IMG/VR virus record: IMGVR_UViG_3300009049_000009
Coordinates: 1 to 41,995 of that record
Source: a virus
DNA length: 41,995 bases
Strand: one strand, 5' to 3'
Part shown: positions 5,811 through 18,964 of the stretch, piece after piece
Position numbering within the stretch: position 1 is the stretch's first letter
How the letters are laid out: each line of letters begins with the position of its first letter
Translations under genes and position numbers: made by a program
Notes under the pieces: model-generated
What the model was told of the DNA's origin: nothing
What the model saw: only the letters and a program-made list of their open reading frames with translations
Databases searched by the model: none

Positions 5811-6365
5811 TTATAGTGTTGTTAATTTAGTTTCTATCTCCTTGGATAGATCGTATTTAGCTTTTATAGCCTCAAGCTTACCTCCTTTTTTAATAAACTC
5901 TACAGCTTTTGGAAATGCTGGGTCTTTTTCTGAAGTTAATGTGCTTTTTGCTTTTGGTGCTTTACCATGTGAATTTATTGCGTCGCTATCGGCTGTATCA
6001 TCAATTAAAAATAAATTACCGAGCGCATACTTTTTGCCATAACTAGAAGCACTACCAAACTTTTGAGGCATCTGCATACCTTTTTGAGCTAAATCAACAC
6101 CGACAATTGCTGTAGCGTGTATAGCATCTTTACCGTCGGTTATAGTTGCTTTTGATTCAAGCATTGGAAACGGAGAGTCTACTAAGACTACTTGCTCATT
6201 AATTATTACTGATACTCCCAACTGTAATAAGAAAGGTTTAGTTGCCTCTAAGATATCTTCGGCACTTCTAAAATTATACTTACCGAATGAATTAAATCTA
6301 CTTTTCTTTGATTTAAATTTTGTCTGGATGGTAGCCAGTTTACTATTTAATGTTTGTTCTTCCAT
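5811..6365 (-). CDS. erf: ERF-family ssDNA annealing protein
   Basis: This 184-aa recombinase starts with a helical region (LATIQTKFKSKKSRFNSFGK), followed by YNFRSAEDILEATKPFLLQLG, VSVIINEQ and the signature KFGSASSYGKKYALGNLFLI typical of ERF annealases. ERF proteins bind ssDNA and pair homologous strands, often with a partner exonuclease, here the next gene. The C-terminal tail is Lys-rich and variable. A GTGTATAGCA repeat copy lies inside the gene at 6117. Confidence 0.88.
   Translation of the reverse strand: MEEQTLNSKLATIQTKFKSKKSRFNSFGKYNFRSAEDILEATKPFLLQLGVSVIINEQVVLVDSPFPMLESKATITDGKDAIHATAIVGVDLAQKGMQMPQKFGSASSYGKKYALGNLFLIDDTADSDAINSHGKAPKAKSTLTSEKDPAFPKAVEFIKKGGKLEAIKAKYDLSKEIETKLTTL
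6117..6126 (+). repeat. Directional repeat, 10-bp match GTGTATAGCA
   Basis: Followed by TC, so 11 of 12 match GTGTATAGCATT. It lies inside the ERF gene, where the complement encodes Ala-Ile-His. Confidence 0.6.
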
Positions 6366-6418
6366 ACTTATATAATTACATATTTAGTTATTTTTTTACA
6401 TTACTTTAAGCACTTAAC

Positions 6419-7183
6419 CTAAAGGTAGTCAAGCACTTGCGTGTGATCTACGTTGTCTATAAGAGTTTGTACTGCTTGCTTTTTTAGCTCTGAAACCGTG
6501 ACATAATCTCTTGCTCCTTTTATGTTTAATTTATCTGCAATTTCTTTTGCTGAGTGCTTAGGACAATCTAATCCGTAAGATAATCTTAACACCTCATATT
6601 CTTTTATGTTTAAATATTTTCGCATTAAACTTGAAAGATAAATATTTAATAAATGTATATTATAATCTTCTGACTTATCTTCAATACTATTAGCCCAAGT
6701 ATCTCCATCGATATCATCGTCGTTTGAAGCTATAGAATCAATACTTAAAAATATTGAATTAAAAAACAGGGCAACAGCTTTTTTGTCTTCAGGATTATTA
6801 CGTATTTCATTTAACTTATGCTCTGGTATTCGCATATCTCCTCTGTTCATATCTATACGCCTTCTAATAGCGCCTTTAACTCTTTTGCTTATAAACGATT
6901 TTAAAGTTTTTTCTATATCTTGAGAATCAACTAATTGAAGCCAGTCTAACCTGTCTACAGACTTAACCAATCCTTCGTTACCTATTTGTATTAGATCGTT
7001 AATACTTAATATTCCAGAAGCTTGATCACTTGTAGAAAACTTTCTAGCTAGATTCTCAACTAGTGGCATAAACTTTATTATAAGTTCATCTCTAGTGTAC
7101 TCGCTGAAGGCTTTATCTTCTGGCATGGATTTCTTAACATCATTCTTATACCTAACGTAGTTTTGTATGTTATACTTTTTCAT
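6419..7183 (-). CDS. Sigma-70-family RNA polymerase sigma factor
   Basis: This 254-aa protein matches sigma region 2 at about residues 35-112: FMPLVENLARKF, LSINDLIQIGNEGLVKSVDRLDW and FISKRVKGAIRRRID, the core-binding and -10 recognition helices. Region 4-like residues 195-250 hold EYEVLRLSYGL, SAKEIADKLNIKG and YVTVSELKKQA, a -35-binding HTH. It would redirect host RNA polymerase to phage promoters. A copy of the 35-bp motif ends 5 bp before its ATG, so it may activate its own gene. Region 1.1 is absent. Confidence 0.88.
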   Translation of the reverse strand: MKKYNIQNYVRYKNDVKKSMPEDKAFSEYTRDELIIKFMPLVENLARKFSTSDQASGILSINDLIQIGNEGLVKSVDRLDWLQLVDSQDIEKTLKSFISKRVKGAIRRRIDMNRGDMRIPEHKLNEIRNNPEDKKAVALFFNSIFLSIDSIASNDDDIDGDTWANSIEDKSEDYNIHLLNIYLSSLMRKYLNIKEYEVLRLSYGLDCPKHSAKEIADKLNIKGARDYVTVSELKKQAVQTLIDNVDHTQVLDYL

Positions 7184-7187
7184 CTGT

Positions 7188-7222
7188 TTATATTATCAAT
7201 TCCTATTCGTGTTTAGTCTGTA
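7188..7222 (-). promoter_or_regulatory. 35-bp promoter-like motif, copy 2 (before the sigma factor)
   Basis: Minus-strand TACAGACTAAACACGA, eight bases, TTGATAATATAA. The ATG of the sigma gene lies only a few bases past the AT box, so a transcript started here would be leaderless or nearly so. Confidence 0.65.
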
Positions 7223-7293
7223 AATTTATTAATTTAATTTTTAACTACCAACATTAAAACGTTCTTTTATCTTAATGTTATAAACAATAAAAA

Positions 7294-7446
7294 TTACTTG
7301 TTTAATTCTTCTTGCAATAGCATAGCTAAGGAAATATCTCTACTTTGCTTACCAACTTCTATTAATTCCTCAGTCTTTGTTTCTCTTTTGCCAAACCATT
7401 TAATGTATTCAGCAAGTGCTTCTTTTAATTCTGTAATTTCGTCCAT
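7294..7446 (-). CDS. Small acidic helical protein, 50 aa
   Basis: The frame starts MDEITELKEALAEYIKWFGKR and ends LLQEELNK. It is almost entirely predicted helix with heptad-like leucines, so it could be a short coiled coil. It is alone between the sigma factor region and the 67-aa coiled-coil gene. Family not recognised. Confidence 0.55.
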   Translation of the reverse strand: MDEITELKEALAEYIKWFGKRETKTEELIEVGKQSRDISLAMLLQEELNK

Positions 7447-7496
7447 AATCGTAATTTTAAAAGCGTACATAAGGGTAACACCAAATATAATTAATA

Positions 7497-7700
7497 CTAG
7501 TCTTCAAGTCTTCTAAGATGGTCTTCTGCTATTTTAATACGCTCGTTAATTCGTGCTAAATTTCGTTTATGTGCTTTTATTAACTCTCGTTTTTCACGTT
7601 CAATCCATCTTATTTCCTGTTCGCATTCATTAGCAATTATAGTTACCCTATGTTCTTTTGGTAATGCGTTAAATCGTTCACTCGCTTCTTTTCGTGTCAT
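7497..7700 (-). CDS. Small coiled-coil protein, 67 aa
   Basis: The frame starts MTRKEASERFNALPKEHRV; from about residue 25 it is a charged helix (EQEIRWIEREKRELIKAHKRNL) that reads as a coiled coil. Function unknown. It is spaced 10 bp from the upstream 80-aa gene, on the same strand and probably in the same transcript. Confidence 0.65.
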   Translation of the reverse strand: MTRKEASERFNALPKEHRVTIIANECEQEIRWIEREKRELIKAHKRNLARINERIKIAEDHLRRLED

Positions 7701-7710
7701 AATTAAATTT

Positions 7711-7953
7711 TTAGTTATTATTCCAAGGGTGGTTTTTCTCTACATTATAAGTATGTTTATCTATCAATTTAGGCTCCCATCTCCCTGCATTTTTAAGAGC
7801 TAATTCTTCACTCCAAATATGTACACTTTCAAAGCGGTCATCCATTTGTACTGGCTTTCCGTTTAACTCTTGGAAAAACTCAAAGCTAACACCGTGTATA
7901 GCGCATAGCTTATCATTTTTCTTTTTTCTAAAGTATTTTATAATTTTATTCAT
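7711..7953 (-). CDS. Hypothetical protein, 80 aa
   Basis: The N-terminus is basic (MNKIIKYFRKKKNDK) and the rest is soluble, with one Cys and several His/Trp (CAIHGVSFEFFQELNGKP, HIWSEELALKN). No known motif. It contains the weakest copy of the directional repeat at 7894. It is followed upstream by a palindromic spacer. Confidence 0.6.
   Translation of the reverse strand: MNKIIKYFRKKKNDKLCAIHGVSFEFFQELNGKPVQMDDRFESVHIWSEELALKNAGRWEPKLIDKHTYNVEKNHPWNNN
7894..7902 (+). repeat. Directional repeat, 9-bp match GTGTATAGC
   Basis: The next base is G rather than A, so this is the most diverged of the ten copies counted. It lies inside the 80-aa gene. Confidence 0.4.
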
Positions 7954-7987
7954 TTTGCTTATTTATTAAGTTTATTTCTTTTTAACG

Positions 7988-8016
7988 CTACGACACCATA
8001 CACAATTCCGTTGTAG
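7988..8016. repeat. Imperfect palindrome, spacer 1
   Basis: CTACGAC at 7988-7994 pairs with GTTGTAG at 8010-8016 with one G-T wobble. GTTGTAGTGC at 8010-8019 is also the exact inverted copy of GCACTACAAC at 8171-8180, so the 45-aa gene between is bracketed by 10-bp inverted repeats. Confidence 0.6.
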
Positions 8017-8021
8017 TGCAT

Positions 8022-8159
8022 TTAGTCCTTGTTAAATACATCCTTTACATCTTCTATAAATACACCTGTCTTTTTATAATAGTTCCAGCTTGCGTGCAAC
8101 TTTCCTACTATATAACCAACTACTACACATCCTAACATTATTACTTCTAAGTTTTTCAT
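8022..8159 (-). CDS. Small single-pass membrane protein, 45 aa
   Basis: The frame starts MKNLEVIMLGCVVVGYIVGK, giving one hydrophobic segment at about 5-20, then a short cytoplasmic-type tail (YYKKTGVFIEDVKDVFNKD). It is the only gene between two perfect 10-bp inverted repeats, which gives a cassette-like look. A membrane-active or superinfection role is possible but not shown. Confidence 0.55.
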   Translation of the reverse strand: MKNLEVIMLGCVVVGYIVGKLHASWNYYKKTGVFIEDVKDVFNKD

Positions 8160-8171
8160 TGTTTAAAAACG

Positions 8172-8228
8172 CACTACAACAACGTATAAAAATAATAGCC
8201 TGTTGCAGTGTCTTATTTGTGGCTATTA
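8172..8228. repeat. Two overlapping palindromes, spacer 2
   Basis: CACTACAACA (8172-8181) pairs 9/10 with TGTTGCAGTG (8201-8210). TAATAGCC (8193-8200) pairs exactly with GGCTATTA (8221-8228). The two stems overlap and are mutually exclusive in one molecule, as in a switch or an attC-like folded site. Confidence 0.65.
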
Positions 8229-8229
8229 C

Positions 8230-8604
8230 TCACTTATCTTTAAATTCATTTAGTAAATCTTCAGATACCCCACAATGTATAGAAAACTCTTCCATTTTGT
8301 TATTAAAAAATTTAGCAAATTCATCTAAATAAATATTCATTGCTTTTAAACAATCATCTTTATCAACTATTTGAGACATAGACCCTTCTTGAATAAAAGG
8401 TTTTAAAATTTTATTTTTCATTTTAATGTGTATCTCTAAAGGTTTAGTGCATCTTCCACAAGTTCCATCCATCCTAATACCACCACTTCCTTTGCACTCA
8501 CACAACGTACCCTTCGGCACACCAACAACGTGTATAACATCATTATTTTTAAAAGTGAAAGGTTTACTATATTCTTCTTCGTTTATAAAATTTATTCCTG
8601 CCAT
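8230..8604 (-). CDS. Hypothetical protein with a Cys-rich zinc-ribbon-like segment, 124 aa
   Basis: Residues 34-52 hold CECKGSGGIRMDGTCGRC, two CxC/CxxC pairs of the kind that bind zinc and that recall a DnaJ Cys-rich knuckle. The remainder is mixed, with a C-terminal helix region (DDCLKAMNIYLDEFAKFFNNK). It could be a nucleic-acid or chaperone-type accessory, but no family is recognised. It follows a palindromic spacer. Confidence 0.65.
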   Translation of the reverse strand: MAGINFINEEEYSKPFTFKNNDVIHVVGVPKGTLCECKGSGGIRMDGTCGRCTKPLEIHIKMKNKILKPFIQEGSMSQIVDKDDCLKAMNIYLDEFAKFFNNKMEEFSIHCGVSEDLLNEFKDK

Positions 8605-8615
8605 TGTTTTATTTT

Positions 8616-8750
8616 TTAAATTAAGTTCTTAAAAGTCGTACTAGCCATAAAAACAATAAATATAAGTAATGGCTCAGGCTGCTTATCTTCTTTCGCATTT
8701 AATTCCAAAGCCTTAGCTACTCTTTGGCTACTCATATTGCCGTTACTCAT
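8616..8750 (-). CDS. Small protein with C-terminal hydrophobic segment, 44 aa
   Basis: The frame starts MSNGNMSSQRVAKALEL and ends in EPLLIFIVFMASTTFKNLI, a likely tail anchor. It lies 11 bp before the 124-aa gene and 11 bp after the 67-aa gene at 8762-8962, so the spacing fits a tight operon. Function unknown. Confidence 0.5.
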   Translation of the reverse strand: MSNGNMSSQRVAKALELNAKEDKQPEPLLIFIVFMASTTFKNLI

Positions 8751-8761
8751 ATTCTTTTCAA

Positions 8762-8962
8762 TTAGGCACAATTAATACCTAGCTCTATTAAGTCACTTTC
8801 TCTTGCATCCTCATAAAAAATTCTTTCTGGAGAATAAGAGCCACCGCCATGACCGTAACTTGGGTCATCCCATTTACTGCTTCTCACTTCTACCATCACT
8901 CTGTATTTACCCCAAAAAGTTTTTTTAAGATACCATTTCCCTTTTAATTGTCTTTGTTCCAT
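8762..8962 (-). CDS. Hypothetical protein, 66 aa
   Basis: The start is ATG at 8962 (MEQRQLKGKWYLKK), preferred over an upstream TTG at 8983. The product is rich in Trp/Lys/Gly (WGKYRVMVEVRSSKWDDP, SYGHGGGSYSPE) and looks like a small beta-rich soluble domain. No known family. A palindromic spacer lies just upstream. Confidence 0.6.
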   Translation of the reverse strand: MEQRQLKGKWYLKKTFWGKYRVMVEVRSSKWDDPSYGHGGGSYSPERIFYEDARESDLIELGINCA

Positions 8963-8976
8963 ATCGTTAAAAGTGT

Positions 8977-9018
8977 CTAACAACAGCTATAAATAAAAGC
9001 CTAATTAGGTCTTGTTAG
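8977..9018. repeat. Palindromic spacer 3
   Basis: CTAACAA (8977-8983) and TTGTTAG (9012-9018) are exact inverted copies 28 bp apart. GTCTAAC at the left end fits the integron attC R'' pattern RYYYAAC; the right end GTTAGTT fits GTTRRRY less well. Confidence 0.5.
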
Positions 9019-9025
9019 TTAATAA

Positions 9026-9316
9026 TTAATTTTCGTTTTGTGAGCTTGCTTCTTTTGCCAACATTCTATAGCAATCCATAAATCCATCATATTTAGCATC
9101 TCCGAAATTATGCTCTTGATATTTTTCTGTGGCTATTTCGTGCATTTCAAGTTCGGTCTTAAACGATTTGCTAACACCAGATAAAATTAATTGCTGGCTA
9201 TGGTAGTGTTTAGCAAATTCAATCATAGCATCATAGTGATATGATGAGTAAATAGCGTCTTTACTATTGTTTTTTAATCTCCAATCTTTAATAAATTCTT
9301 CTAATAATTTGTCCAT
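9026..9316 (-). CDS. Hypothetical protein, 96 aa
   Basis: The frame starts MDKLLEEFIKDWRLKNNSKD. It is helical and soluble with several His/Tyr (SSYHYDAMIEFAKHYHSQQL) and ends acidic. It has the look of small phage helical proteins, but no family or active site is recognisable. It lies between spacer 3 and the HTH gene. Confidence 0.65.
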   Translation of the reverse strand: MDKLLEEFIKDWRLKNNSKDAIYSSYHYDAMIEFAKHYHSQQLILSGVSKSFKTELEMHEIATEKYQEHNFGDAKYDGFMDCYRMLAKEASSQNEN

Positions 9317-9361
9317 TTTTATAGTTTTTTATAGGTTTAAAAGTGTACAACAAAGCGTTAA

Positions 9362-9985
9362 TTATATCAATTGTTGATTTAGTAATTGTTTTTCTTTTTT
9401 AAGTTCATTGCCCATATTTCTGTGAACAGTTCTTGATGAACAATTTAATGACTTAGCTAATCCAGCGATCGTTATTTTAATTCCAGCGTCATTCAATAGT
9501 ATCATAGCGTCATATATTTCTGATTCAGATATACTTTTTCTACCAACCATCTTACCTACTATAGACAATTTTTGTTTCATGTCTAAACCCGAAAAGTCTT
9601 TAAATATAATTTTACGCAGTTTATTTGGTGGAGGTTTTTCTAAATCCATCAACGAAACATCGTATATCATTTTCTCGCGTAATCTTTCGGATATTACGAA
9701 TGTAACAAAACCATTTGTATTATCGCATATATGTTTAGAAATTAAATTAAAGTTGTCTTGATCCATTTTAGGATTTAGATACCATAATACATACAAATGC
9801 CATTTAAGGCTCTTATATGTGTTAATTTTAGCCTTAGAACTAAACAATGTATAACATTCATGTGTTCCATCTTCATAGAAATTACCCCATTCAAATACCT
9901 CTGTAGGTTTATCTGTAACAGGGTTACGTTTATATGTTATTCGATGTTTATGTAAATAATCCATGTTTCGTTCAAACTGTGACAT
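9362..9985 (-). CDS. HTH DNA-binding protein, candidate autoregulator
   Basis: This 207-aa protein has a mixed N-terminal domain and, at about residues 165-195, AGIKITIAGLAKSLNCSSRTVHRNM, a clear helix-turn-helix of the replication-initiator or transcription-regulator kind. Its ATG lies inside one arm of the 46-bp palindromic element (9978-10023), so binding there would block its own transcription or translation. The same element recurs upstream of the right arm. This suggests, but does not prove, an early/late regulator. Confidence 0.65.
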   Translation of the reverse strand: MSQFERNMDYLHKHRITYKRNPVTDKPTEVFEWGNFYEDGTHECYTLFSSKAKINTYKSLKWHLYVLWYLNPKMDQDNFNLISKHICDNTNGFVTFVISERLREKMIYDVSLMDLEKPPPNKLRKIIFKDFSGLDMKQKLSIVGKMVGRKSISESEIYDAMILLNDAGIKITIAGLAKSLNCSSRTVHRNMGNELKKEKQLLNQQLI

Positions 9986-10023
9986 TAGCCTCTTACTATT
10001 ATATTATACTAGCTAGTGTCGCA
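9978..10023 (-). promoter_or_regulatory. 46-bp palindromic promoter/operator, copy A
   Basis: Half-sites TGTGACATTAGC (9978-9989) and GCTAGTGTCGCA (10012-10023) are inverted, 9/12 matching, around an AT-rich core. On the minus strand the core reads TATAATATAATAG. It overlaps the start codon of the HTH gene. Copies B and C align over the whole element in the same internal orientation. Confidence 0.65.
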
Positions 10024-10026
10024 CTG

Positions 10027-10215: not shown

Positions 10216-10217
10216 AA

Positions 10218-10697
10218 TTAATTTATATAGTGAGGTCGTACGATCTTGTCTTCATTCTTATTTTTTACAGTGTGCTTTTCATTTTCGTAGTAATTCCAAT
10301 AACCTAACACGCTGTTATTTAATACTTTATACTCGTCAGGCATACACTGAGGCGGCTGCTCAAAAGCTTTGTCAGGTATACCGTTAGGCAACGTGTATAG
10401 CACATCTCTACACTTAGAGATTGTTAGATGATGTTTACCATAACGTTTAGTATACTCGGCACCTAGTGCTAACATATGTTCATATGCCCACATATATGCT
10501 TCGGCTGATGATCTAACCCATATGGCTGATGGATGGTTTTTATGTGTAGGCTTATAAGGTATATCAACCGTAGTACCTAACTCATGATGAGCAGTGCACA
10601 ATAGTTGGGCAGTTTCAAGTATCATTTTTACGACATGCTTATTGTACTGGTACTCAGCTGCTTTCTTAGGATCGTGAGATAGATAAAATATATTCAT
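10218..10697 (-). CDS. Conserved phage protein, 159 aa, possibly pyrimidine-dimer-glycosylase-like
   Basis: The N-terminus MNIFYLSHDPKKAAEYQYNK, followed by HVVKMILETAQLLCTAHH and THKNHPSAIWVRSSAEAY, is a pattern I associate with a phage protein sometimes annotated as a pyrimidine dimer DNA glycosylase. I cannot confirm catalytic residues by eye. A DNA-repair role would act on UV damage, plausible for a surface-water phage. Its ATG overlaps the stop of the upstream gene. Treat the function as tentative; the protein itself is clearly coding. Confidence 0.65.
   Translation of the reverse strand: MNIFYLSHDPKKAAEYQYNKHVVKMILETAQLLCTAHHELGTTVDIPYKPTHKNHPSAIWVRSSAEAYMWAYEHMLALGAEYTKRYGKHHLTISKCRDVLYTLPNGIPDKAFEQPPQCMPDEYKVLNNSVLGYWNYYENEKHTVKNKNEDKIVRPHYIN
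10393..10402 (+). repeat. Directional repeat, 10-bp match GTGTATAGCA
   Basis: Inside the 159-aa gene, where the complement is read in the Leu-Tyr-Thr frame, different from the Ala-Ile-His frame of other copies. Confidence 0.6.
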
Positions 10698-10981: not shown

Positions 10982-11206
10982 TTACATTTTTTTGTTGAAT
11001 TTGAATAATCTTTTAATGTTAGTGTTAATGAATTTACCTTTAGATTCAGCATCCAATAACCCACGCCAGTAAAATAATGGCACGTCTTCATACTCATATA
11101 CACCGCCGTTTTTGTATACTAATGTAAGTATTTGGTCCTCTGCATGGTATACTCCTGTTGAAATTGTTGACGAATTGTCATTTATAAATTTTTCTAAAAT
11201 GTTCAT
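10982..11206 (-). CDS. KTSC-domain-like protein, 74 aa
   Basis: The product starts MNILEKFINDNSSTISTGVY and shows ILTLVYKNGGVYEYEDVPLF plus ESKGKFINTNIK. This is the layout of KTSC domains (small beta proteins with a VP followed by a Phe/Tyr-Ile-Lys end). KTSC domains occur alone or fused to RNA-related enzymes; no reaction is known. It leads a transcription unit behind copy 3 of the 35-bp motif. Confidence 0.7.
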   Translation of the reverse strand: MNILEKFINDNSSTISTGVYHAEDQILTLVYKNGGVYEYEDVPLFYWRGLLDAESKGKFINTNIKRLFKFNKKM

Positions 11207-11226
11207 AAGTTTTTTGCTTTTGTTTA

Positions 11227-11261
11227 TTATATTATCTATTGTTGATCGTGTTTAGTCTGTA
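11227..11261 (-). promoter_or_regulatory. 35-bp promoter-like motif, copy 3
   Basis: Minus-strand TACAGACTAAACACGA, eight bases, TAGATAATATAA. It ends 20 bp before the KTSC-like gene. The stop codon of the 26-aa peptide gene lies inside it. Confidence 0.7.
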
Positions 11262-11332
11262 ATATGTTCTATCGCTAATAATATTACAATACATATAAGG
11301 AATAAGACTATCCAAATTAATATGTTTACCAT
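11252..11332 (-). CDS. Tiny single-pass membrane peptide, 26 aa
   Basis: ATG overlaps the end of the upstream DnaA-like gene (ATGGTAA), and the frame encodes MVNILIWIVLFLICIVILLA plus a short polar tail. Nearly the whole product is one membrane helix. Its stop sits inside promoter-like copy 3. Small membrane peptides in phages can inhibit host functions or assist lysis; no specific role is shown. Confidence 0.5.
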   Translation of the reverse strand: MVNILIWIVLFLICIVILLAIEHITD

Positions 11333-11871
11333 ACAGATCCTTCTATGATTTGGCATTTATCTTCGTTCTTCCAAGCCCAGCTTTTCTTTAATAAGTTAAG
11401 CCTTTCAATAACATCTTTAAACTTATCATTTGGAATATCAAAGAATAAATCGAGCACTGGATCTAGCTTAATCTTTTCTTCTAAGAATTTAACTGTTGTT
11501 TTTAGAGCTTGCTTTTCATTGTTTAGCTTACGTATTTCTTCTTGTAACCTGTATATATTATCAGCTTCAAATACATCTGTGTCGTCATCTACATTAAAAC
11601 ATTTTTCAAGCCTTAACAGTTTACTGTTGTATTTTCTGTAATGAGGATATTGTTTAACTAAGTGCATAACATTAGAGTGATCCATATGTTTGCCATTAGC
11701 TTTAAAGAATTTAGCTATGTTTGTCCAACCCATGTTTAGTTTATTTTTTAATACATAGGCAAGTAAGGATCTATAGTATACATAATCTCTGTCTCTAGTG
11801 TTATCAAATATATTTATTCTTGATACTTCTACAATTTTATTACTAATTTGGTATGCTTCGCTTTTATCCAT
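11326..11871 (-). CDS. Protein resembling the DnaA DNA-binding domain, plus coiled coil
   Basis: In this 181-aa protein, residues about 26-77 hold RDRDYVYYRSLLAYVLKNKL, MGWTNIAKFFKANGK and DHSNVMHLVKQYPHY. This resembles DnaA domain IV, where a basic helix is followed by an HTH and a DHxTVxHA signature. Residues 105-140 form a coiled coil (EEIRKLNNEKQALKTTVKFL). No AAA+ domain is present, so it could bind DnaA-box-like DNA without ATP switching. It might recruit or compete with host DnaA. Similarity is by eye and moderate. Confidence 0.6.
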   Translation of the reverse strand: MDKSEAYQISNKIVEVSRINIFDNTRDRDYVYYRSLLAYVLKNKLNMGWTNIAKFFKANGKHMDHSNVMHLVKQYPHYRKYNSKLLRLEKCFNVDDDTDVFEADNIYRLQEEIRKLNNEKQALKTTVKFLEEKIKLDPVLDLFFDIPNDKFKDVIERLNLLKKSWAWKNEDKCQIIEGSVW

Positions 11872-12244: not shown

Positions 12245-12850
12245 TTAGTGAAATATTAATCCTACCTTGTTGGTGGCATTAAACCATCTAGTTGCATATA
12301 GGTCCACAGATGAAGCATCAGTATACCCAGCATGAACAAGATCGCTATGACTAGAAAATATTTTGGTGTGTCGGTGTTGTCTTTCATTTATTAAATGTTT
12401 TTGTTTTCCTGAATCAGAAAAGATTATGTCGTAATTATCTGGCAATGAAGCTTTTAGCATCATATCGATCATGTTGGTGTAACTGTAAAACCGTACGTTA
12501 GGGTTGTGTATAGCAACCTCGATCCACTTTTTTAGATATGCACGAGAGTAATAATCGCCGCTATCATGGACTCTGACATAATCAGGTTTCTTCTTACGTA
12601 TTTCAGCGTTCATAGCTTCAACAAAATCGTCAGTCTTGCTCAACTCATAACGCTTTTCAAACGCAGGTTTTACGTTACTCCATATGTAGGCTCCTTTCTT
12701 AGCATAACAGAATTTTATACAACTGTCAGCCATGGGGCACGTCAGTTTCCCGCTAGCAGATTTGTAGGCAGGAATACCAAAATTAAAAACCCGGAGCCCT
12801 AATGCTTTAGAAGTTTTTTTAAGTTTAGAGTTTTGTGTTAATAAGTTCAT
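12245..12850 (-). CDS. GP88-family phage protein
   Basis: This 201-aa protein carries LTCPMADSCIKFCYAKKGAY, a Cys-rich motif, then VRVHDSGDYYSRAYLKKW and NVRFYSYTNM. This order matches the phage GP88 family (mycobacteriophage gp88-like). The conserved Cys and HDSGD residues suggest a metal- or cluster-binding enzyme, but no reaction is established for the family. It leads a unit behind copy 4 of the 35-bp motif. Confidence 0.8.
   Translation of the reverse strand: MNLLTQNSKLKKTSKALGLRVFNFGIPAYKSASGKLTCPMADSCIKFCYAKKGAYIWSNVKPAFEKRYELSKTDDFVEAMNAEIRKKKPDYVRVHDSGDYYSRAYLKKWIEVAIHNPNVRFYSYTNMIDMMLKASLPDNYDIIFSDSGKQKHLINERQHRHTKIFSSHSDLVHAGYTDASSVDLYATRWFNATNKVGLIFH
12506..12515 (+). repeat. Directional repeat, 10-bp match GTGTATAGCA
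   Basis: Inside the GP88-like gene. The preceding base is T, so the complement reads CTATACACA, 8/9 to the DnaA-box consensus TTATNCACA. Confidence 0.6.
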
Positions 12851-12862
12851 AATTTTTGTTTA

Positions 12863-12897
12863 TTATATTATCGATTAGCGATCGTGTTTAGTTTGTA
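12863..12897 (-). promoter_or_regulatory. 35-bp promoter-like motif, copy 4
   Basis: Minus-strand TACAAACTAAACACGA, eight bases, TCGATAATATAA. It ends 12 bp before the GP88-like gene and overlaps the end of the 95-aa gene. Confidence 0.7.
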
Positions 12898-13175
12898 TTA
12901 ATCAAGCAACAATTAAAAAAGTCATTAATAACTTCTTCACGCTCTTCGTCATTGCAGTTAATAGCTACACTTTCTTCATCAAAGTATTTCCACCACTTTT
13001 TTAACAGTCCACGTTTTTGGTTAACATCGTATAGCCCCAATTGCTGGTCAGCGTATTCTTGCATAATCTTTCCTTCCGCTTCTCTGTTTACTAATGCAAG
13101 GAATTTCTTCATCCTTGGTCTTTTAGCATTTTCTATTGTCTTTTGTCTAAAAAATTCTTCTGCTTCTTTACTCAT
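12888..13175 (-). CDS. Hypothetical protein, 95 aa
   Basis: Helical, charged protein starting MSKEAEEFFRQKTIENAKRP, with WWKYFDEESVAINCNDEER and a Cys-Cys near the end. Its last codons overlap promoter-like copy 4. No recognised family; probably a soluble early protein. Confidence 0.6.
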   Translation of the reverse strand: MSKEAEEFFRQKTIENAKRPRMKKFLALVNREAEGKIMQEYADQQLGLYDVNQKRGLLKKWWKYFDEESVAINCNDEEREEVINDFFNCCLINTN

Positions 13176-13186: not shown

Positions 13187-13450
13187 TTAATCAAGTAATA
13201 CCATATATGCATCAACGTTATTTTTACGAAACCAATTTAAAGCTTTATGAAAGTTATTAAATTGCTTAGGTGTAACAGTTTTTGGCGCTACCCTAAATAC
13301 ATATTGAGATCCTGTTATAAAGTCGTATATTGATAGCTCGAGGCTGTTGAGTGTATAGCATTCGCCGCTGAACGGATTGGTTACTGTATCGCCTTCACTA
13401 TATATGGTTCCTTTAAACCATTTAGGTGTTGTTTGCTTTTTAGTTTTCAT
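13187..13450 (-). CDS. Hypothetical protein, 87 aa
   Basis: Starts MKTKKQTTPKWFKGTIYSEG, continuing TVTNPFSGECYTLNSLELSI, and ends with KALNWFRKNNVDAYMVLLD. The pattern of a small beta region followed by a helix resembles short hypothetical proteins I associate with marine phages, without known function. It abuts the upstream coiled-coil gene (stop and start overlap). A directional repeat copy lies inside, read in the Cys-Tyr-Thr frame. Confidence 0.65.
   Translation of the reverse strand: MKTKKQTTPKWFKGTIYSEGDTVTNPFSGECYTLNSLELSIYDFITGSQYVFRVAPKTVTPKQFNNFHKALNWFRKNNVDAYMVLLD
13351..13362 (+). repeat. Directional repeat, exact GTGTATAGCATT
   Basis: Inside the 87-aa gene. The complement is read in a third frame (Cys-Tyr-Thr), so protein constraint does not explain the motif. 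Confidence 0.7.
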
Positions 13451-13802: not shown

Positions 13803-14030
13803 TTAGTTTTTATTTGATTTTTCTATTAATTCCGCAATGTATTTCCATACTTCTAACTCAGCTTGGTTGCCTTCAAGTATCATGATCATTTCTTCTTCGG
13901 TTATACCACCGTACGATCCGGACTTTAGTTCTAATTTGTTGCTGCCGATCTCAAAAAATAACATTTCCATTTTAGCAAACGCTTTATCGCTAGCGCGTTC
14001 GTGTATAGCATTAGACTGTAATAAATGCAT
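13803..14030 (-). CDS. Hypothetical protein, 75 aa
   Basis: Start placed at ATG 14030 (MHLLQSNAIHERASDK), which gives a 20-bp overlap with the 66-aa gene; an earlier ATG at 14075 would add 15 residues and a longer overlap. The product is acidic and helical, with GSYGGITEEEMIMILEGNQ. Function unknown. Confidence 0.55.
   Translation of the reverse strand: MHLLQSNAIHERASDKAFAKMEMLFFEIGSNKLELKSGSYGGITEEEMIMILEGNQAELEVWKYIAELIEKSNKN
14001..14012 (+). repeat. Directional repeat, exact GTGTATAGCATT
   Basis: Inside the 75-aa gene, read as Asn-Ala-Ile-His on the minus strand. Confidence 0.7.
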
Positions 14031-14211
14031 CGCCGAAGTATTTAAGGTTACATATGCTTTGCACTTCCATAGCATCACCGTAGCGTACGTTTGTAAAAAA
14101 CTTTTCGGTTTTTAGTGATGTTATAATACTTTCAGCACTGTTTGGATATCTTTTACCGTGTTCGCTAATAGATTCTTTGTGCTCTGGTTTTAATCTTTTA
14201 TATAAAGTCAT
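14011..14211 (-). CDS. Small basic protein, 66 aa
   Basis: Starts MTLYKRLKPEHKESISEHGK, with a basic N-terminus and mixed C-terminus. It is the first gene after promoter-like copy 5 (20 bp). No recognised family. Confidence 0.6.
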   Translation of the reverse strand: MTLYKRLKPEHKESISEHGKRYPNSAESIITSLKTEKFFTNVRYGDAMEVQSICNLKYFGDAFITV

Positions 14212-14231
14212 ATTGTTATTTTTAAGTTCAT

Positions 14232-14266
14232 ATATATTATCGATTTTCGATCGTATTTAGTTTGTA
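14232..14266 (-). promoter_or_regulatory. 35-bp promoter-like motif, copy 5
   Basis: Minus-strand TACAAACTAAATACGA, eight bases, TCGATAATATAT. The spacer here makes ATCG...CGAT inverted steps, as in several copies. Confidence 0.7.
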
Positions 14267-14292
14267 TTTTGTTTTAAATCGCAAATAACAGT

Positions 14293-14573: not shown

Positions 14574-14670
14574 TGGTGTTGTTCAGGGCACTTGAATCAG
14601 AGGTGCACACGATAAATTGCCTGTTCCTTTATTTGCTTTTGTCGACGTCTAGCCAGCAAAACAGCCACCA
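14574..14670. ncRNA. Structure C, 97-nt closed stem
   Basis: TGGTG at one end pairs with CACCA at the other, followed by an inner TGTT/AACA step. An inner GCAC/GTGC hairpin carries a TTGAATC-type loop. Not a canonical tRNA. Confidence 0.35.
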
Positions 14671-14684
14671 ACCTATTGTTAATA

Positions 14685-15146: not shown

Positions 15147-15172
15147 AATTTCTATATTTAATTTAATTTTAG

Positions 15173-15243
15173 TTGACTCACAAGGATTCGAACCTTGAAT
15201 GACGGTACCAAAGACCGTAGTGTTACCATTACACCATGAGTCA
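15173..15243 (-). tRNA. tRNA-Gln (anticodon TTG)
   Basis: This is a canonical cloverleaf: acceptor TGACTCA/TGAGTCA (7 bp), D-arm GTG/CAC with GG in the loop, anticodon arm ACGGT, CTTTGGT, ACCGT with anticodon TTG at 15209-15211, a 4-base variable loop, T-arm CAAGG, TTCGAAT, CCTTG, and discriminator A. CCA is not encoded. It decodes CAA, likely frequent in this AT-rich genome. It is the only standard tRNA in the window. Confidence 0.93.
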
Positions 15244-15249
15244 TTTAAA

Positions 15250-15337
15250 AGATTAGATACACCTACTAAAGAAATTTCATCTTCTTTTCCCCCGGAGAGG
15301 AGTTAGTTTCATCCACGTAGGCGAATTACTCTAATCT
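15250..15337. ncRNA. Structure D, 88-nt closed stem
   Basis: AGATTAGA (15250-15257) is the exact inverse of TCTAATCT (15330-15337). An inner CCTAC/GTAGG stem and further hairpins (CTCC/GGGG) suggest a junction. No TTCRA loop. Confidence 0.4.
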
Positions 15338-15349
15338 AATCTAAATATC

Positions 15350-15421
15350 ATAGTAGCTCCCATGGAAATCTTAGGACCTCAAACCTGGGATGTAGCTATT
15401 TAAACTGGTCTTCACTACTAT
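15350..15421. ncRNA. Structure E, 72-nt closed stem
   Basis: ATAGTAG/CTACTAT closes a 72-nt segment, exactly tRNA size, with inner TCCCA/TGGGA and TAGC/GCTA pairs. A GGTTTGAGGTCC stretch on the minus strand resembles a T-arm but is in the wrong place. Confidence 0.4.
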
Positions 15422-15433
15422 AATATTAATTTT

Positions 15434-15529
15434 AAAACGTTATCAAACAACTCCCGAACATTGTCAGCGTACCAGGGACCCCGCTAGCTTAGCGTCTGGT
15501 TTACTACTTTTTACAGTTGGTAACGTTTT
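15434..15529. ncRNA. Structure F, 96-nt closed stem
   Basis: AAAACGTTA and TAACGTTTT are exact inverses and extend by CAA/TTGG-type pairs. Inside is the nested hairpin ACCAG...CTGGT around CGCTA, GCT, TAGCG. On the minus strand a GTTCGGGA loop closed by ACAAT/GTTGT resembles a T-arm. Confidence 0.4.
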
Positions 15530-15532
15530 ATT

Positions 15533-15611
15533 CCTCGCAAAGCCATGCTCCATTTACAACCTAACTACCTGTTTCGGCTAATGCAGTACTCGACACCTGC
15601 TGACTACGAGG
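15533..15611 (-). ncRNA. Structure G, 79-nt acceptor-like stem
   Basis: On the minus strand CCTCGTA pairs 7/7 (one wobble) with TGCGAGG and is followed by A, like an acceptor with discriminator. The interior does not give a standard D/anticodon/T set. It shares its 5' end with structure H. Confidence 0.4.
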
Positions 15612-15674
15612 CTCTCTGGATTCGAACCAGTTTCGTAACTAGTGAGGATTCGAACCTCATACCCGTCGGTAGTC
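15602..15674 (-). ncRNA. Structure H, 73-nt stem with two T-arm hairpins
   Basis: GACTAC/GTAGTC closes 73 nt on the minus strand. Inside are two complete T-arm-like hairpins, at 15616-15630 (CTGG, TTCGAAT, CCAG) and 15643-15659 (TGAGG, TTCGAAT, CCTCA), 12 bp apart. Two T-arms in one tRNA-sized unit point to tRNA remnants joined by deletion, or a tRNA mimic. Confidence 0.45.
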
Positions 15675-15782
15675 ATAGTCATTGTATGCTCGTGAAAACG
15701 TTTACATACTTCAGTACTAAACCTGACCTAGTTTCCAGTGTCATCGGGAATGCCCGCTTATTCACCTATTGTTATTATTCAA

Positions 15783-15817
15783 TTATATTATCGATTCGTT
15801 ATCGTGTTTAGTTTGCA
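15783..15817 (-). promoter_or_regulatory. 35-bp promoter-like motif, copy 6 (reads into the RNA cluster)
   Basis: Minus-strand TGCAAACTAAACACGA, eight bases, TCGATAATATAA. Unlike most copies there is no protein start just downstream; the structured RNAs and tRNA-Gln follow. The motif also encodes the last residues of the 64-aa gene. Confidence 0.65.
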
Positions 15818-15977
15818 TATACATTTTGTTGATCGCTAGCTTTATTATAGCAGCGTGTATAGCATTATACTCGTCGCCTGATGTTGAATGATCGGCTAAT
15901 ACCCAATCAGTAGTATCTTTCATTAATTGCAATGTTACTTCAGCTACTTCAAGTGCCATATCATTTATCTTTTTCAT
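15783..15977 (-). CDS. Hypothetical protein, 64 aa
   Basis: Starts MKKINDMALEVAEVTLQLMK, helical, with DHSTSGDEYNAIHAAIIKLA. The C-terminal ten residues (QTKHDNESII) are encoded by the promoter-like motif itself, so coding and regulatory sequence overlap. Function unknown. Confidence 0.55.
   Translation of the reverse strand: MKKINDMALEVAEVTLQLMKDTTDWVLADHSTSGDEYNAIHAAIIKLAINKMYMQTKHDNESII
15855..15866 (+). repeat. Directional repeat, exact GTGTATAGCATT
   Basis: Inside the 64-aa gene. The bases GTATA, GCAT, TATAC form a small perfect palindrome around the copy. Confidence 0.7.
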
Positions 15978-16086
15978 ACAGTTTTTCTTTAAGTTCGTTT
16001 ACTTTTTCTTGTAAGTACCAATCGTCTTCGTAGTTTACTTGTATGTACATTGATAGCTCTTGTAGTATATCCGCTGTTAGTTTCAT
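15961..16086 (-). CDS. Small acidic helical protein, 41 aa
   Basis: Starts MKLTADILQELSMYIQVNYE and ends KVNELKEKLYEKDK. ATG overlaps the stop of the 86-aa gene, and its end overlaps the start of the 64-aa gene by 17 bp. It could be a short coiled coil; no family recognised. Confidence 0.55.
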   Translation of the reverse strand: MKLTADILQELSMYIQVNYEDDWYLQEKVNELKEKLYEKDK

Positions 16087-16346
16087 TACTTACAATTATT
16101 ATTATTAAATTCTAGTAAAGCTTTTACTCTATCAGAAGATGAAGGGATTAACTTACGTCTGTAGTGATATTGATCGTTTAGTTTACCATAGCGTAAGGTT
16201 ATTTTCTTATTGATTTGGTACATGCGTTCTATACGAGAGTTTTTAACGCTTACCCTTATGTATCCGCTGTTGTAAGATACACCTAGTCTACCGTCATCTA
16301 GTTTAAAGTGGATAGAGCCTTTTTTTGTTACTTTAATTAATTCCAT
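16086..16346 (-). CDS. Small basic protein, 86 aa
   Basis: Starts MELIKVTKKGSIHFKLDDGR, with alternating beta-type residues (LGVSYNSGYIRVSVKNSR) and then a basic stretch (YHYRRKLIPSSSDRVK). It looks like a small beta domain that may bind nucleic acid. Both ends touch neighbouring genes. Confidence 0.6.
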   Translation of the reverse strand: MELIKVTKKGSIHFKLDDGRLGVSYNSGYIRVSVKNSRIERMYQINKKITLRYGKLNDQYHYRRKLIPSSSDRVKALLEFNNNNCK

Positions 16347-16348
16347 AG

Positions 16349-16588
16349 TTACTTATTTAAAAATTCTTTAGTTGCTTCGTACGTTAGTATTTTTAGTTTT
16401 TTATAGTGATCGACATTATCTATATAGTCGTCAATTGCTTCACGCATTTGTTTTTCAGTGAACTTAGTAAAGCTAGTTACTTGTACATGCTCGAGTAATG
16501 CTTCGTCGCTACATCGGTACATAATTGCTTTTCTCCCTCGATAATCTGATACTTCGATTTGTTTATAGAAATAATTTCGGTATTTCAT
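16349..16588 (-). CDS. Hypothetical protein, 79 aa
   Basis: Starts MKYRNYFYKQIEVSDYRGRK, with one Cys, and continues into a helical C-terminus (EKQMREAIDDYIDNVDHYKK). It lies 2 bp upstream of the 86-aa gene, so it is co-transcribed. No family recognised. Confidence 0.6.
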   Translation of the reverse strand: MKYRNYFYKQIEVSDYRGRKAIMYRCSDEALLEHVQVTSFTKFTEKQMREAIDDYIDNVDHYKKLKILTYEATKEFLNK

Positions 16589-16591
16589 ATC

Positions 16592-16753
16592 TTATATAGT
16601 TTTTATATTGTTCTCTTTTAGCAAGTCGTTTAGATTACTTAACTGTACTTTTTCTCTTATAGCTTGCTGAAAGTTTCTTAAAAACGCTTTATTCTGTTCT
16701 CTGATCTTAGCGTACTTTTCTCTTTGTCTTTCGTGATATCCTTCTGGTGGCAT
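16592..16753 (-). CDS. Small charged helical protein, 53 aa
   Basis: Starts MPPEGYHERQREKYAKIREQ and runs as a Lys/Gln/Arg-rich helix to LLKENNIKTI. The spacing of 3 bp to both neighbours supports coding. Function unknown. Confidence 0.55.
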   Translation of the reverse strand: MPPEGYHERQREKYAKIREQNKAFLRNFQQAIREKVQLSNLNDLLKENNIKTI

Positions 16754-16756
16754 ACT

Positions 16757-16858
16757 TTAGTTTCGTATAGCATAAGCAGCGGCGCTACCTAACTTAGTTA
16801 ATACTTTGCTTACTTTTGCTAATACTATTAGCGCTCGGGGTTTAATTTTAGTAACCAT
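16757..16858 (-). CDS. Very small basic protein, 33 aa
   Basis: Starts MVTKIKPRALIVLAKVSKVL and ends GSAAAYAIRN; an amphipathic or weakly hydrophobic helix is likely. It overlaps the end of the 114-aa gene by 11 bp. Support is mostly operon position. Confidence 0.4.
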   Translation of the reverse strand: MVTKIKPRALIVLAKVSKVLTKLGSAAAYAIRN

Positions 16859-17192
16859 CTTTTATCATGTCGTTTAGTAGGGCTATCACTCTGTCTTTTG
16901 GGTTATCTTGTGTATACCCGTTTATAGTGTTTCTATTATTAACCCTCGCAAGACACCCTGATTCGTTGTGAGTTTCACGGATGTATTTTCCAACTTGGTG
17001 TCTAGCAAATTCTTCTACTTCGCTTTTCCATCCATCTCCACAAAATTGCTTGTAATCAAGCGGATCTTCAGACTTTAATCTAACTAAGTGACCTATTGCA
17101 CAGCACTTACCGTGGCTGTCGGAAAATTGATGTAGTATAAAATCTTTTCCTGGTATTGGTAATAATAATTCTTTTGCTTCTAGTGAGTTCAT
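16848..17192 (-). CDS. Hypothetical protein with a CCAIG motif, 114 aa
   Basis: The protein has HGKCCAIGHLVRLKSEDPLD and an end NPKDRVIALLNDMIKD. This layout resembles DUF6197-like phage and actinobacterial proteins (CA-x-GA motif, then a closing helix), although the match is loose. Two Cys and several His could bind metal. It leads a unit behind copy 7 of the 35-bp motif. Confidence 0.65.
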   Translation of the reverse strand: MNSLEAKELLLPIPGKDFILHQFSDSHGKCCAIGHLVRLKSEDPLDYKQFCGDGWKSEVEEFARHQVGKYIRETHNESGCLARVNNRNTINGYTQDNPKDRVIALLNDMIKDGY

Positions 17193-17214
17193 TTGTTTGT
17201 TATTTTAAATTCAT

Positions 17215-17249
17215 ATATATTATCGAAAGGGGATCGTATTTAGTTTGTA
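17215..17249 (-). promoter_or_regulatory. 35-bp promoter-like motif, copy 7
   Basis: Minus-strand TACAAACTAAATACGA, TCCCCTTT, CGATAATATAT. It ends 22 bp before the 114-aa gene. Confidence 0.7.
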
Positions 17250-17250
17250 A

Positions 17251-17553
17251 TTATTCTGGGTGGTCTTCTCTACATACTACCGCGGTATGAAATGCCCACA
17301 TACACTTGTTCATAAACTCTATAGTACTCACGGAAGCTTTCTCTATAGGAAATGTGTATAGCATTGACTCGTAAAAATCCGTTAAACCTTGATCGTTGTA
17401 ACACCAACATTTCTTAAAATAATCGTAGTCATCGCCTTGCATAAAGTTTAAACCTATTACTTTACGTTGTTCGTTATATTCTATATATAACCAACGATCT
17501 TCTTTCTCACTCCACACATGCTCTACTTTATCTACTTTGTACTTATCTTTCAT
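17251..17553 (-). CDS. Hypothetical protein, 100 aa
   Basis: Starts MKDKYKVDKVEHVWSEKEDR. It is Trp/Tyr/Cys-rich (DYFKKCWCYNDQGLTDFYES) with a C-terminal CMWAFHTAVVCRED. The four Cys could form a metal site. ATG overlaps the upstream stop by 4 bp (ATGA). Confidence 0.6.
   Translation of the reverse strand: MKDKYKVDKVEHVWSEKEDRWLYIEYNEQRKVIGLNFMQGDDYDYFKKCWCYNDQGLTDFYESMLYTFPIEKASVSTIEFMNKCMWAFHTAVVCREDHPE
17354..17365 (+). repeat. Directional repeat, exact GTGTATAGCATT
   Basis: Inside the 100-aa gene, read as Met-Leu-Tyr-Thr. The flanking T gives a complement CTATACACA, 8/9 to TTATNCACA. Confidence 0.7.
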
Positions 17554-17822
17554 GATATAATGGTATTTTGATGTAATATAATAATATATTTACTCCATGC
17601 TTCCGCTAATTTTTTATTGTGGAATCTTTTAATACCTGGGTCATTAAGAGCTAATCTACTATCAAACTCTTCTTTAGAAGTACCTTCGGTTTTGTTTTCC
17701 ATTTTCACTAATTGAACTTTTAATGGATAGTGATGGGAGCTTTTAGTTCCGTTTTGAACACAGTAATATGCGTCACCTACATGCTTGTCTACTCCGTCTT
17801 CTGTTTTAAATAATACTTTCAT
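17550..17822 (-). CDS. Hypothetical protein, 90 aa
   Basis: Starts MKVLFKTEDGVDKHVGDAYY, beta-rich at first (YPLKVQLVKMENK), then helical (HNKKLAEAWSKYIIIL). No family recognised. First gene behind copy 8 of the 35-bp motif. Confidence 0.6.
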   Translation of the reverse strand: MKVLFKTEDGVDKHVGDAYYCVQNGTKSSHHYPLKVQLVKMENKTEGTSKEEFDSRLALNDPGIKRFHNKKLAEAWSKYIIILHQNTIIS

Positions 17823-17863
17823 TATAATAGTCTTTTTAATTGTTGGTTTATTTTTAAATTCAT

Positions 17864-17898
17864 TAATATTATCATTAGGTGATCGTGTTTAGTTTGTA
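17864..17898 (-). promoter_or_regulatory. 35-bp promoter-like motif, copy 8
   Basis: Minus-strand TACAAACTAAACACGA, eight bases, ATGATAATATTA. It ends 41 bp before the 90-aa gene and overlaps the stop of the 75-aa gene. Confidence 0.65.
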
Positions 17899-18116
17899 GT
17901 CACTGGTTTATGATAGTGATTCCACAATCTAGTGTGAGAGAATGATCTACCTTTACTGCCTGCTCCTTTGCTTTTAGTTCTCACTTTTCGGTATTCTTTC
18001 GCTGTCAACCCTGAACAATATTCACCCTGAGTTACTGTTTTGCGATGTTGTACAGCATCCGCTTTTCTCTTTTGTACAACGTATACACACACTTCTTTCA
18101 TTGTCATCACTTTCAT
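17889..18116 (-). CDS. Small basic protein, 75 aa
   Basis: Starts MKVMTMKEVCVYVVQKRKAD. The second half is strongly basic and Ser/Gly-rich (RKVRTKSKGAGSKGRSFSHT), as in nucleic-acid-binding proteins. ATG overlaps the TGA of the upstream 58-aa gene. Its end lies in promoter-like copy 8. Confidence 0.6.
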   Translation of the reverse strand: MKVMTMKEVCVYVVQKRKADAVQHRKTVTQGEYCSGLTAKEYRKVRTKSKGAGSKGRSFSHTRLWNHYHKPVTTN

Positions 18117-18289
18117 ATTATTCTCTTTAATTGTTGTTTTATTTTTAGGATATCTTCGTCACTTACTTCGAAGTTGTAGTCTACATCTCGCTCGCTCAGG
18201 GTATTCCACATAGCGTCATGAAAGTTATCACCCATTATTTCATCTAGGCGGTTAGCGATAGATTTTATTTCTTCGTTAGTTAATACCAT
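18113..18289 (-). CDS. Acidic helical protein, 58 aa
   Basis: Starts MVLTNEEIKSIANRLDEIMG and reads on through NTLSERDVDYNFEVSDEDIL. Coupled to both neighbours (TGA/ATG overlap downstream, 14-bp overlap upstream). Function unknown. Confidence 0.55.
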   Translation of the reverse strand: MVLTNEEIKSIANRLDEIMGDNFHDAMWNTLSERDVDYNFEVSDEDILKIKQQLKRII

Positions 18290-18425
18290 AGTCTTCTTTT
18301 ATTTCTCGCTTAGTATTTTTGTACTGTCTGTTTTCACTACAAGTAGGACAACTTCCTCGCTTACCCCTACAACTCTTATCGATCGCTTTAGATCCGGTGT
18401 AGGCTTTTCTTTTTGTTCTACTCAT
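18276..18425 (-). CDS. Small zinc-ribbon-like phage protein, 49 aa
   Basis: Starts MSRTKRKAYTGSKAIDKSCR, followed by GSCPTCSENRQYKN. The basic head, lone Cys and CxxC pair match a small protein widespread in tailed phages (KSCR...GSC-x-xC-xxNR pattern). Zinc binding is likely; the role is unknown. Confidence 0.7.
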   Translation of the reverse strand: MSRTKRKAYTGSKAIDKSCRGKRGSCPTCSENRQYKNTKREIKEDYGIN

Positions 18426-18513
18426 TTTCCAAACTTTGGTGATATTCTTTCAACATTAACTGCGTATACTCTTCATACTCTTGTTCGCTATTAAATCCGT
18501 GATATTCTTTCAT
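18418..18513 (-). CDS. Very small acidic protein, 31 aa
   Basis: Reads MKEYHGFNSEQEYEEYTQLM and ends QSLENE. Both ends overlap neighbours (ATGA upstream, ATGAGTAG downstream), the only strong support for coding. Confidence 0.45.
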   Translation of the reverse strand: MKEYHGFNSEQEYEEYTQLMLKEYHQSLENE

Positions 18514-18659
18514 AACTCGTCTATTGTACTCCACTCTAAGTGGGTTATTATTCGGTCTTCTAAGTATTCGTAGTCTTTTATTTCTTCAGGAGTTAAGACA
18601 TCTATCTTAATAACCAGGTCAATGAGGGGTTTACCGTACTTTTCAATTAATTTTTCCAT
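18510..18659 (-). CDS. Small acidic protein, 49 aa
   Basis: Starts MEKLIEKYGKPLIDLVIKID and ends THLEWSTIDEL. Helical. It is the first gene behind copy 9 of the 35-bp motif (42 bp) and heads a chain of five overlapping tiny genes. Function unknown. Confidence 0.55.
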   Translation of the reverse strand: MEKLIEKYGKPLIDLVIKIDVLTPEEIKDYEYLEDRIITHLEWSTIDEL

Positions 18660-18701
18660 TTGGTTATTTTTTAGTTGATATCGTTATTATTTTAGATTCA
18701 T

Positions 18702-18736
18702 ATATATTATCGAATTAGTTTCGTATTTAGTTTGTA
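18702..18736 (-). promoter_or_regulatory. 35-bp promoter-like motif, copy 9
   Basis: Minus-strand TACAAACTAAATACGA, eight bases, TCGATAATATAT. Upstream of the five-gene cluster of tiny ORFs. Confidence 0.7.
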
Positions 18737-18907
18737 AAGGTGTAAAATTATTAATGAGTAAAAATAGTAGTAAAAGTGTTAAGCTACCTCTCTTATTGAG
18801 TAAAAGTAGTATATTTACCTACAAATAGTAGTTATTTTAGTTGTTTTACCTATAAAATGGAGGTTTTGTAGTGAAAAAGACTTGATCGACTGATCATTGC
18901 AGGTGAA

Positions 18908-18919
18908 GTGTATAGCATT
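18908..18919 (+). repeat. Directional repeat, exact GTGTATAGCATT
   Basis: In non-coding DNA, so not maintained by protein coding. Confidence 0.75.
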
Positions 18920-18952
18920 TAAACGTTACGTAGGACGGAGTCTACTCTTCCG

Positions 18953-18964
18953 GTGTATAGCATT
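18953..18964 (+). repeat. Directional repeat, exact GTGTATAGCATT
   Basis: In non-coding DNA 45 bp from the previous copy. GTATA, GCATT, TATAC forms a hairpin around it. Confidence 0.75.

Follow-up and report, generated by a model that had tools for sequence, protein, structure and literature searches.

A strict, polar 10-bp motif in the early arm of an uncultured phage group and its possible role in early transcription

The early arm and its repeated motif

The window analyzed here is the whole 41,995-base IMG/VR virus record IMGVR_UViG_3300009049_000009, and the element in question is a short, directional motif, TGCTATACA[C/T], that recurs throughout its left arm. The left (early) arm is transcribed from the minus strand and encodes MazG, ThyA, a primase-helicase, an exonuclease, Erf and a sigma-like protein, and the right (late) arm carries the tail fibre, GroEL, terminase and portal genes. 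The first early gene (19083–19421, minus strand; FVVR family) serves as a reference point, and the first gene of the late arm (20284–20547, plus strand; DYDHK family) encodes a small basic protein. The terminase has relatives in Flavobacterium, Cellulophaga and similar phages, and the motif-bearing phages form a large uncultured group, probably of Flavobacteria/Bacteroidota hosts.

Because the left arm is transcribed from the minus strand, the repeat reads AATGCTATACAC in the sense direction, with TGCTATACA[C/T] as its core. A sequence-only reading of the window had listed six exact copies of a 12-mer (13351, 14001, 15855, 17354, 18908 and 18953), and all six were recovered at these positions and on the expected strand. 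Three of its four near copies (6117, 10393 and 12506) contain the exact core; the fourth (7894) has three mismatches to the 12-mer. Altogether there are nine exact cores in the window, every one in the orientation of early transcription and none reversed. The claim that the copies point one way and are confined to the left arm also held: the 9-mer GTGTATAGC occurs ten times on the plus strand and never on the minus strand, spanning 6117 to 18953. When up to two mismatches are allowed, the proposed comparison with shuffled sequence gives 17 matches versus 5.8 ± 2.3 in dinucleotide shuffles, and none of the 100 shuffles reaches 17.

The exact cores, all on the minus strand, are distributed over diverse contexts. 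That in the Erf gene (TGCTATACAC, 6117–6126) is read in the AIH frame and has a counterpart at this position in the Erf genes of 13 motif-rich relatives. Further copies lie in the LYT frame of the phrog_624 gene (10393–10402), in the AIH frame of the GP88 gene (12506–12515; same place in 10 of 14 relatives and elsewhere in the gene in one lineage), in a CYT frame (13351–13360), across the stop/start TAATG of two early genes (14001–14010; MLYT, with start-codon overlap TAATGCTATACAC), immediately upstream of an early leader element (15855–15864) and within the early gene at 17251–17553 (17354–17363). The remaining two are noncoding and form a direct pair 45 bp apart, with the first at 18953–18962 and the second at 18908–18917. 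Weak copies on the same strand include 7894–7905 (core CGCTATACAC) and three that may be due to chance: 8530–8541 (GATGTTATACAC), 9847–9858 (AATGTTATACAT) and 11662–11673, within the DnaA-like gene.

Recurrence of a 12-mer is not in itself unusual here, contrary to the initial expectation that even one would be rare: two other 12-mers recur five to six times in the window, one belonging to coding repeats of the tail fibre and the other to early-leader elements. The case for the motif rests instead on its strictness, its orientation and its conservation in relatives. We also considered ACGACTAGTCCT as a second scattered signal and rejected it as coding repeats within the tail-fibre gene; the six copies of CGACTAGTCC at 23723–26313 are likewise tail-fibre coding repeats (G.VGIGTTSP-type) and not regulatory.

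Conservation, orientation and selection in related phages

Among 80 viral loci with a related primase, TGCTATACAC has 166 copies that read with the early genes and 35 that are antisense to them, and TGCTATACAT has 63 and 4, respectively; nearly all remaining one-base variants are rare, and most are near zero. The T or TT flanking the window copies varies among relatives, leaving TGCTATACA[C/T] as the strict part, and within 90 bp of the core no further base is conserved save for a weak A/T preference just before it. In 80 terminase loci (873 kb) the 9-mer core occurs only twice. Of 40 phage contigs that we fetched, 24 are motif-rich (6–19 copies) and 16 are motif-poor (0–3 copies), although some records are fragments, and a low count in a short record is not proof of absence. 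In the rich contigs, copies extend from the first early gene to ThyA/MazG and beyond and point with early transcription, and most reversed copies are found either within the divergent noncoding zone or at a single ThyA site. This reversed ThyA copy, at nearly the same place in six contigs (G001, G002, G003, G014, G036 and G039), is probably coding-driven.

The sequence-only reading had proposed that absence or lack of direction in related phages would point to chance and that host-wide abundance would point to host composition. The motif is present and directional in the related phages, and in 40 bacterial genomes from the class of a Sphingobacteriales metagenome-assembled genome (MAG), which may not be the class of the host, it occurs at the chance level of a reversed-pattern control, unlike an abundant host oligomer of the Chi or uptake type. 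The sole run of copies among these genomes is on a 63-kb contig with a phage-like pattern (G086 contig C28; L492, L493), binned with the Sphingobacteriales MAG, which is either a possible hint of the host or contamination. A literature search with the exact sequence returned only unrelated primer-type matches among the matches listed. A directional 9-mer in one contig (G013), CCCGACGTT, was considered as an alternative dialect of the motif; it co-exists with the normal motif in G002 and is therefore not a replacement for it. Other one-direction words in motif-carrying contigs (L300–L305) include TAGCTATTGG (14/0) and TTACAACAGG (17/0) in G083 and TAGCTATAGG (10/0) in G079.

Copies occur in all three reading frames and between genes, in keeping with the earlier claim that protein coding does not explain them. 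In codon alignments of the Erf, GP88, phrog_624, primase and 13187–13450 families, the tripeptides AIH, LYT and CYT appear mainly where the motif is present, most other lineages have unrelated residues at the motif site, and the position of the motif differs between lineages within the same gene. The dependence of the tripeptides on the motif, together with these positional shifts, indicates selection on nucleotides. Judged from the alignments, the motif is kept strictly enough to alter the encoded proteins.

Using simple open reading frames as gene calls, we counted 109 sense versus 14 antisense copies in the early genes of rich phages, with ThyA contributing 6 of the antisense ones, and 3 sense and 1 antisense in those of poor phages. 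Synonymous shuffling predicts 15.7 sense and 2.4 antisense copies in the rich genes, values that the existing tripeptides inflate, and 1.6 and 0.75 in the poor genes; the null ratio is about 2:1. A sense bias is lacking in the late genes of rich phages (12 sense and 20 antisense copies in 829 kb); these 32 copies exceed the expected 3.7, and do so in both orientations. Through the early genes, copies occur about every 1–2 kb, and between the noncoding zone and ThyA their spacing is more even than random (median 1.6 kb; combined p ~2e-9, ignoring relatedness, and E-values or p-values that do so overstate certainty). Copies within genes lie towards the middle of the gene and away from its ends. 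Close pairs are direct in 33 cases versus inverted in 2, with no helical phasing seen among them, and local RNA folding shows no tendency for the motif to stay unpaired.

Early leaders, the noncoding zone and candidate partner proteins

Early genes are preceded by a leader of the form TTACAR-N6-YACGA-N9-TTGATAATATA, which is 31 nt in 514 of 515 unique cases across relatives. We call it promoter-like, since its promoter activity is inferred. The leader upstream of the first early gene lies at 19435–19499 (minus strand), and further copies in the window are at 4672–4736, 7159–7223, 11200–11264, 12836–12900, 14203–14267, 15756–15820, 17186–17250, 17835–17899, 18673–18737 and 19890–19930. Several of them could form a short CGAW..WTCG hairpin. 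The 40 bp directly upstream of 645 unique leaders contain 116 motif copies (36 sense, 80 antisense), against a background further upstream of about 25 copies per 40 bp and none inside the leader element itself. The leader is also found in some motif-poor relatives, so the motif is an addition to it. In the commoner orientation, both at leaders (80 of 116) and in genes, RNA polymerase would meet the motif at its TGC end.

Between the paired noncoding copies lies a conserved element, CGGAAGAGTAGACTCCG (18936–18952, minus strand; 94 viral stretches). Over 18900–19070, the arrangement GGCCTG, a variable hairpin and CGGAAGAGTAGACTCCGTCCTAC is conserved in the 94 stretches (L306–L399); the hairpin shows apparent compensatory changes by eye, the element has no Rfam match, and a structured RNA or an origin element is possible. 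The only Rfam match in the window and noncoding region was a tRNA-Gln (TTG) gene in the early arm (15172–15243). Two related imperfect palindromes (GYGAC..TAGC ... GCTA..GTCAC) flank the first early gene. One, GTGAC...GTCAC, is at 19015–19059 and the other is at approximately 20130–20210; both have an AT-rich center and a T-run, are terminator- or origin-like and are conserved in relatives.

Of 106 gene families, only that of the small basic protein (20284–20547) is present in all rich contigs (24 of 24) and absent from most poor ones (present in 5 of 16). New contigs fetched with this protein contain 119 motifs in the 276 kb of their early flanks versus 15 in the 452 kb of their late flanks. 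On the trees, motif and protein never change in opposite directions; only two or three independent pairs at supported branches are informative, and once descent is taken into account the association does not reach significance. The protein is arginine-rich, and its structural model consists of helices and a beta hairpin (mean predicted local distance difference test score, pLDDT, 78; predicted template-modeling score, pTM, 0.42). It is the foremost, though unproven, candidate for the motif-binding protein, and it may equally be a virion protein.

Interpretation and comparison with known systems

Taking orientation, strictness and position together, we tentatively favor, at slightly below even probability, the reading that early transcription is controlled, in a stoperator-like manner, through TGCTATACA[C/T] as an asymmetric and probably double-stranded binding site for a protein. 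The motif would then probably mark the places where a putative regulator meets RNA polymerase. A phage protein would bind it, either as a monomer or with one fixed orientation. The motif could serve as an operator or upstream site at early promoters, whereas within early operons an elongating polymerase would meet the TGC side of the bound protein, resulting in a roadblock or modulation, such that early genes would be silenced or tuned once the phage turns to late expression. We prefer a DNA-bound protein that acts on polymerase mainly because the TGC end faces polymerase in both settings. A fuller scheme seems unlikely taken as a whole: repressor and integrase are not detected, a strict polar site lies in the coding sequence of most early operons and bends the encoded proteins, and a novel small basic late protein (20284–20547 family) would engage polymerase both at promoters and during elongation to turn early genes off.

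Several observations weigh against a stoperator-like site. (i) Of the 116 leader-side copies, 36 are in the other orientation. (ii) The link to the basic protein is the best of 106 families, with only two or three independent tree contrasts, and in five contigs the protein is accompanied by few motifs. (iii) The basic protein has no recognizable DNA-binding fold, and fold and PDB searches gave no structural relative. (iv) A CI-type HTH_3 domain was not found in seven carriers, in a helix-turn-helix (HTH) search that was not exhaustive and did not include an L5-type repressor. (v) The phages look lytic, whereas L5-type stoperators serve lysogeny. (vi) Three database relatives that we checked, two of them cultured, lack both the motif and the promoter-like element: an Elemovirus and Cellulophaga phi17:1 (both cultured) and MW202828 (uncultured) have no motif, and the leader is absent save for one possible match in phi17:1.

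The same polarity could be read at the level of RNA, with UGCUAUACAY in early transcripts recognized by an RNA-binding protein, a nuclease or an antiterminator, for early-mRNA shut-off or in a nut-like role. The in-gene sense bias, the concentration of copies in early transcripts at an even spacing of about one per operon and the arginine-rich candidate protein are all consistent with such an element, and in complete contigs the antisense copies are no more than ~1.3 kb from the divergence region and might read as sense copies in a long late leader. We nevertheless think it unlikely, since the promoter-abutting copies are outside the transcript and mostly antisense and there is no selection for unpaired RNA; in addition, contigs such as G042 and G044 lack a reverse-complement exact core, which excludes a perfectly complementary phage RNA there. 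A replication signal, comprising iterons near an origin between the arms and polar copies for priming, Chi-like recombination or segregation, is in our estimate quite unlikely. Copies do point away from a zone near the cumulative GC-skew turning point, paired copies stand beside the conserved palindrome and noncoding element, and the early arm encodes the primase-helicase and Erf, but the late arm, which must also be replicated, is nearly copy-free and without sense bias, the copy peak is tied to the promoter-like element, and close pairs lack helical phasing. The strand-specific priming and mRNA processing suggested initially are weakened by the near absence of copies from the late arm, by the mostly antisense promoter-abutting copies and by the finding that the motif is not kept unpaired in RNA.

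The core also resembles an extended −10 box (TGnTATAnT) in the sense direction, and a sigma-like protein is encoded at 6419–7183, so that each copy might be a single-box promoter (TGNTATA) for a phage sigma factor in the style of T4 late genes. This is very unlikely: in-gene copies are mid-gene and not upstream of starts, there is no second box, leader-side copies are mostly reversed, and a separate promoter-like element with fixed spacing precedes early genes, also in motif-poor relatives. Least credible of all is a DnaA-type box read by host DnaA or by the phage DnaA domain IV-like protein (11326–11871, minus strand; DnaA_C match, E 2e-6, below the curated cut-off). The sequence-only reading had noted the closeness of the complementary strand to a DnaA box, and TATACAC is common to the motif and the DnaA box TTATNCACA. 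The last base of the motif is C or T, no A is conserved after CAC, C is fixed in place of T at box position 1, and TGTTATACAC-type neighbors are nearly absent. As a general reader the DnaA-like protein was rejected: domain IV occurs in just 2 of the 28 records from related phages, most of which have the motif. A binding or processing signal is probable; DnaA as its reader is not supported. The motif-free relative MW202828 (L491) has genes annotated as dnaA and chromosomal replication initiation protein (51033–51335 and 60107–60676 of the record), suggesting that DnaA-like proteins may occur in the group independently of the motif.

Comparison with known systems sets these features in context. 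The Elemovirus podoviruses of Flavobacterium (MT497073) have the same gene order, with primase-helicase and Erf in the early arm and GroEL, terminase and structural genes in the late arm, and a terminase ~45% identical, but contain neither the motif nor the early promoter-like element in the 50 kb examined. DnaA boxes are likewise short and asymmetric and overlap the motif in TATACAC, but differ in their strict positions (here TGCTATACAY, with no terminal A), and most carriers have no DnaA-like protein. T4 late promoters consist of a single strict −10 box, similarly short and oriented with transcription, whereas the present copies are mid-gene and a separate early promoter-like element exists. 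The lambda nut sites of N antitermination lie at operon starts and form a hairpin; both they and the motif are sense in early operons, and the candidate partner here is small and arginine-rich, but the motif forms no hairpin and has many evenly spaced copies.

The closest parallel that we discuss is with the cluster A mycobacteriophages of the L5 repressor family, whose 20–30 sites of 13–14 bp follow the direction of transcription; some are at early promoters, the majority are not, and a monomeric repressor bound to the sites blocks elongation (PMC6550527, PMC9283540). As in cluster A, the site here is short and asymmetric with many copies per genome (6–19 in 24 contigs, with one strict core), is mostly oriented with transcription (109 sense versus 14 antisense in early genes) and is in part located at putative early promoters, with a peak directly upstream of the promoter-like element. 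Unlike in cluster A, it is 10 bp long, confined to the early arm and mainly inside coding sequence. Cluster A phages are temperate, with an integrase or parABS, and their repressor has an N-terminal HTH and a stoperator domain; here there is no Phage_integrase match in 13 carrier contigs and no HTH_3 in the seven carriers, with an L5-type repressor not searched for. Given these differences in length, location, integrase and reader, we describe the motif as stoperator-like in its working and not as a family member. It provides a short sequence tag for recognizing this lineage in metagenomes, and its layout would clearly illustrate how regulatory DNA can shape the sequence of proteins. Dispersed polar transcription-blocking sites have so far been well described in one mycobacteriophage cluster; a comparable layout that evolved separately, within genes, in widespread uncultured phages would suggest that viruses more generally use DNA-bound proteins to control elongation.

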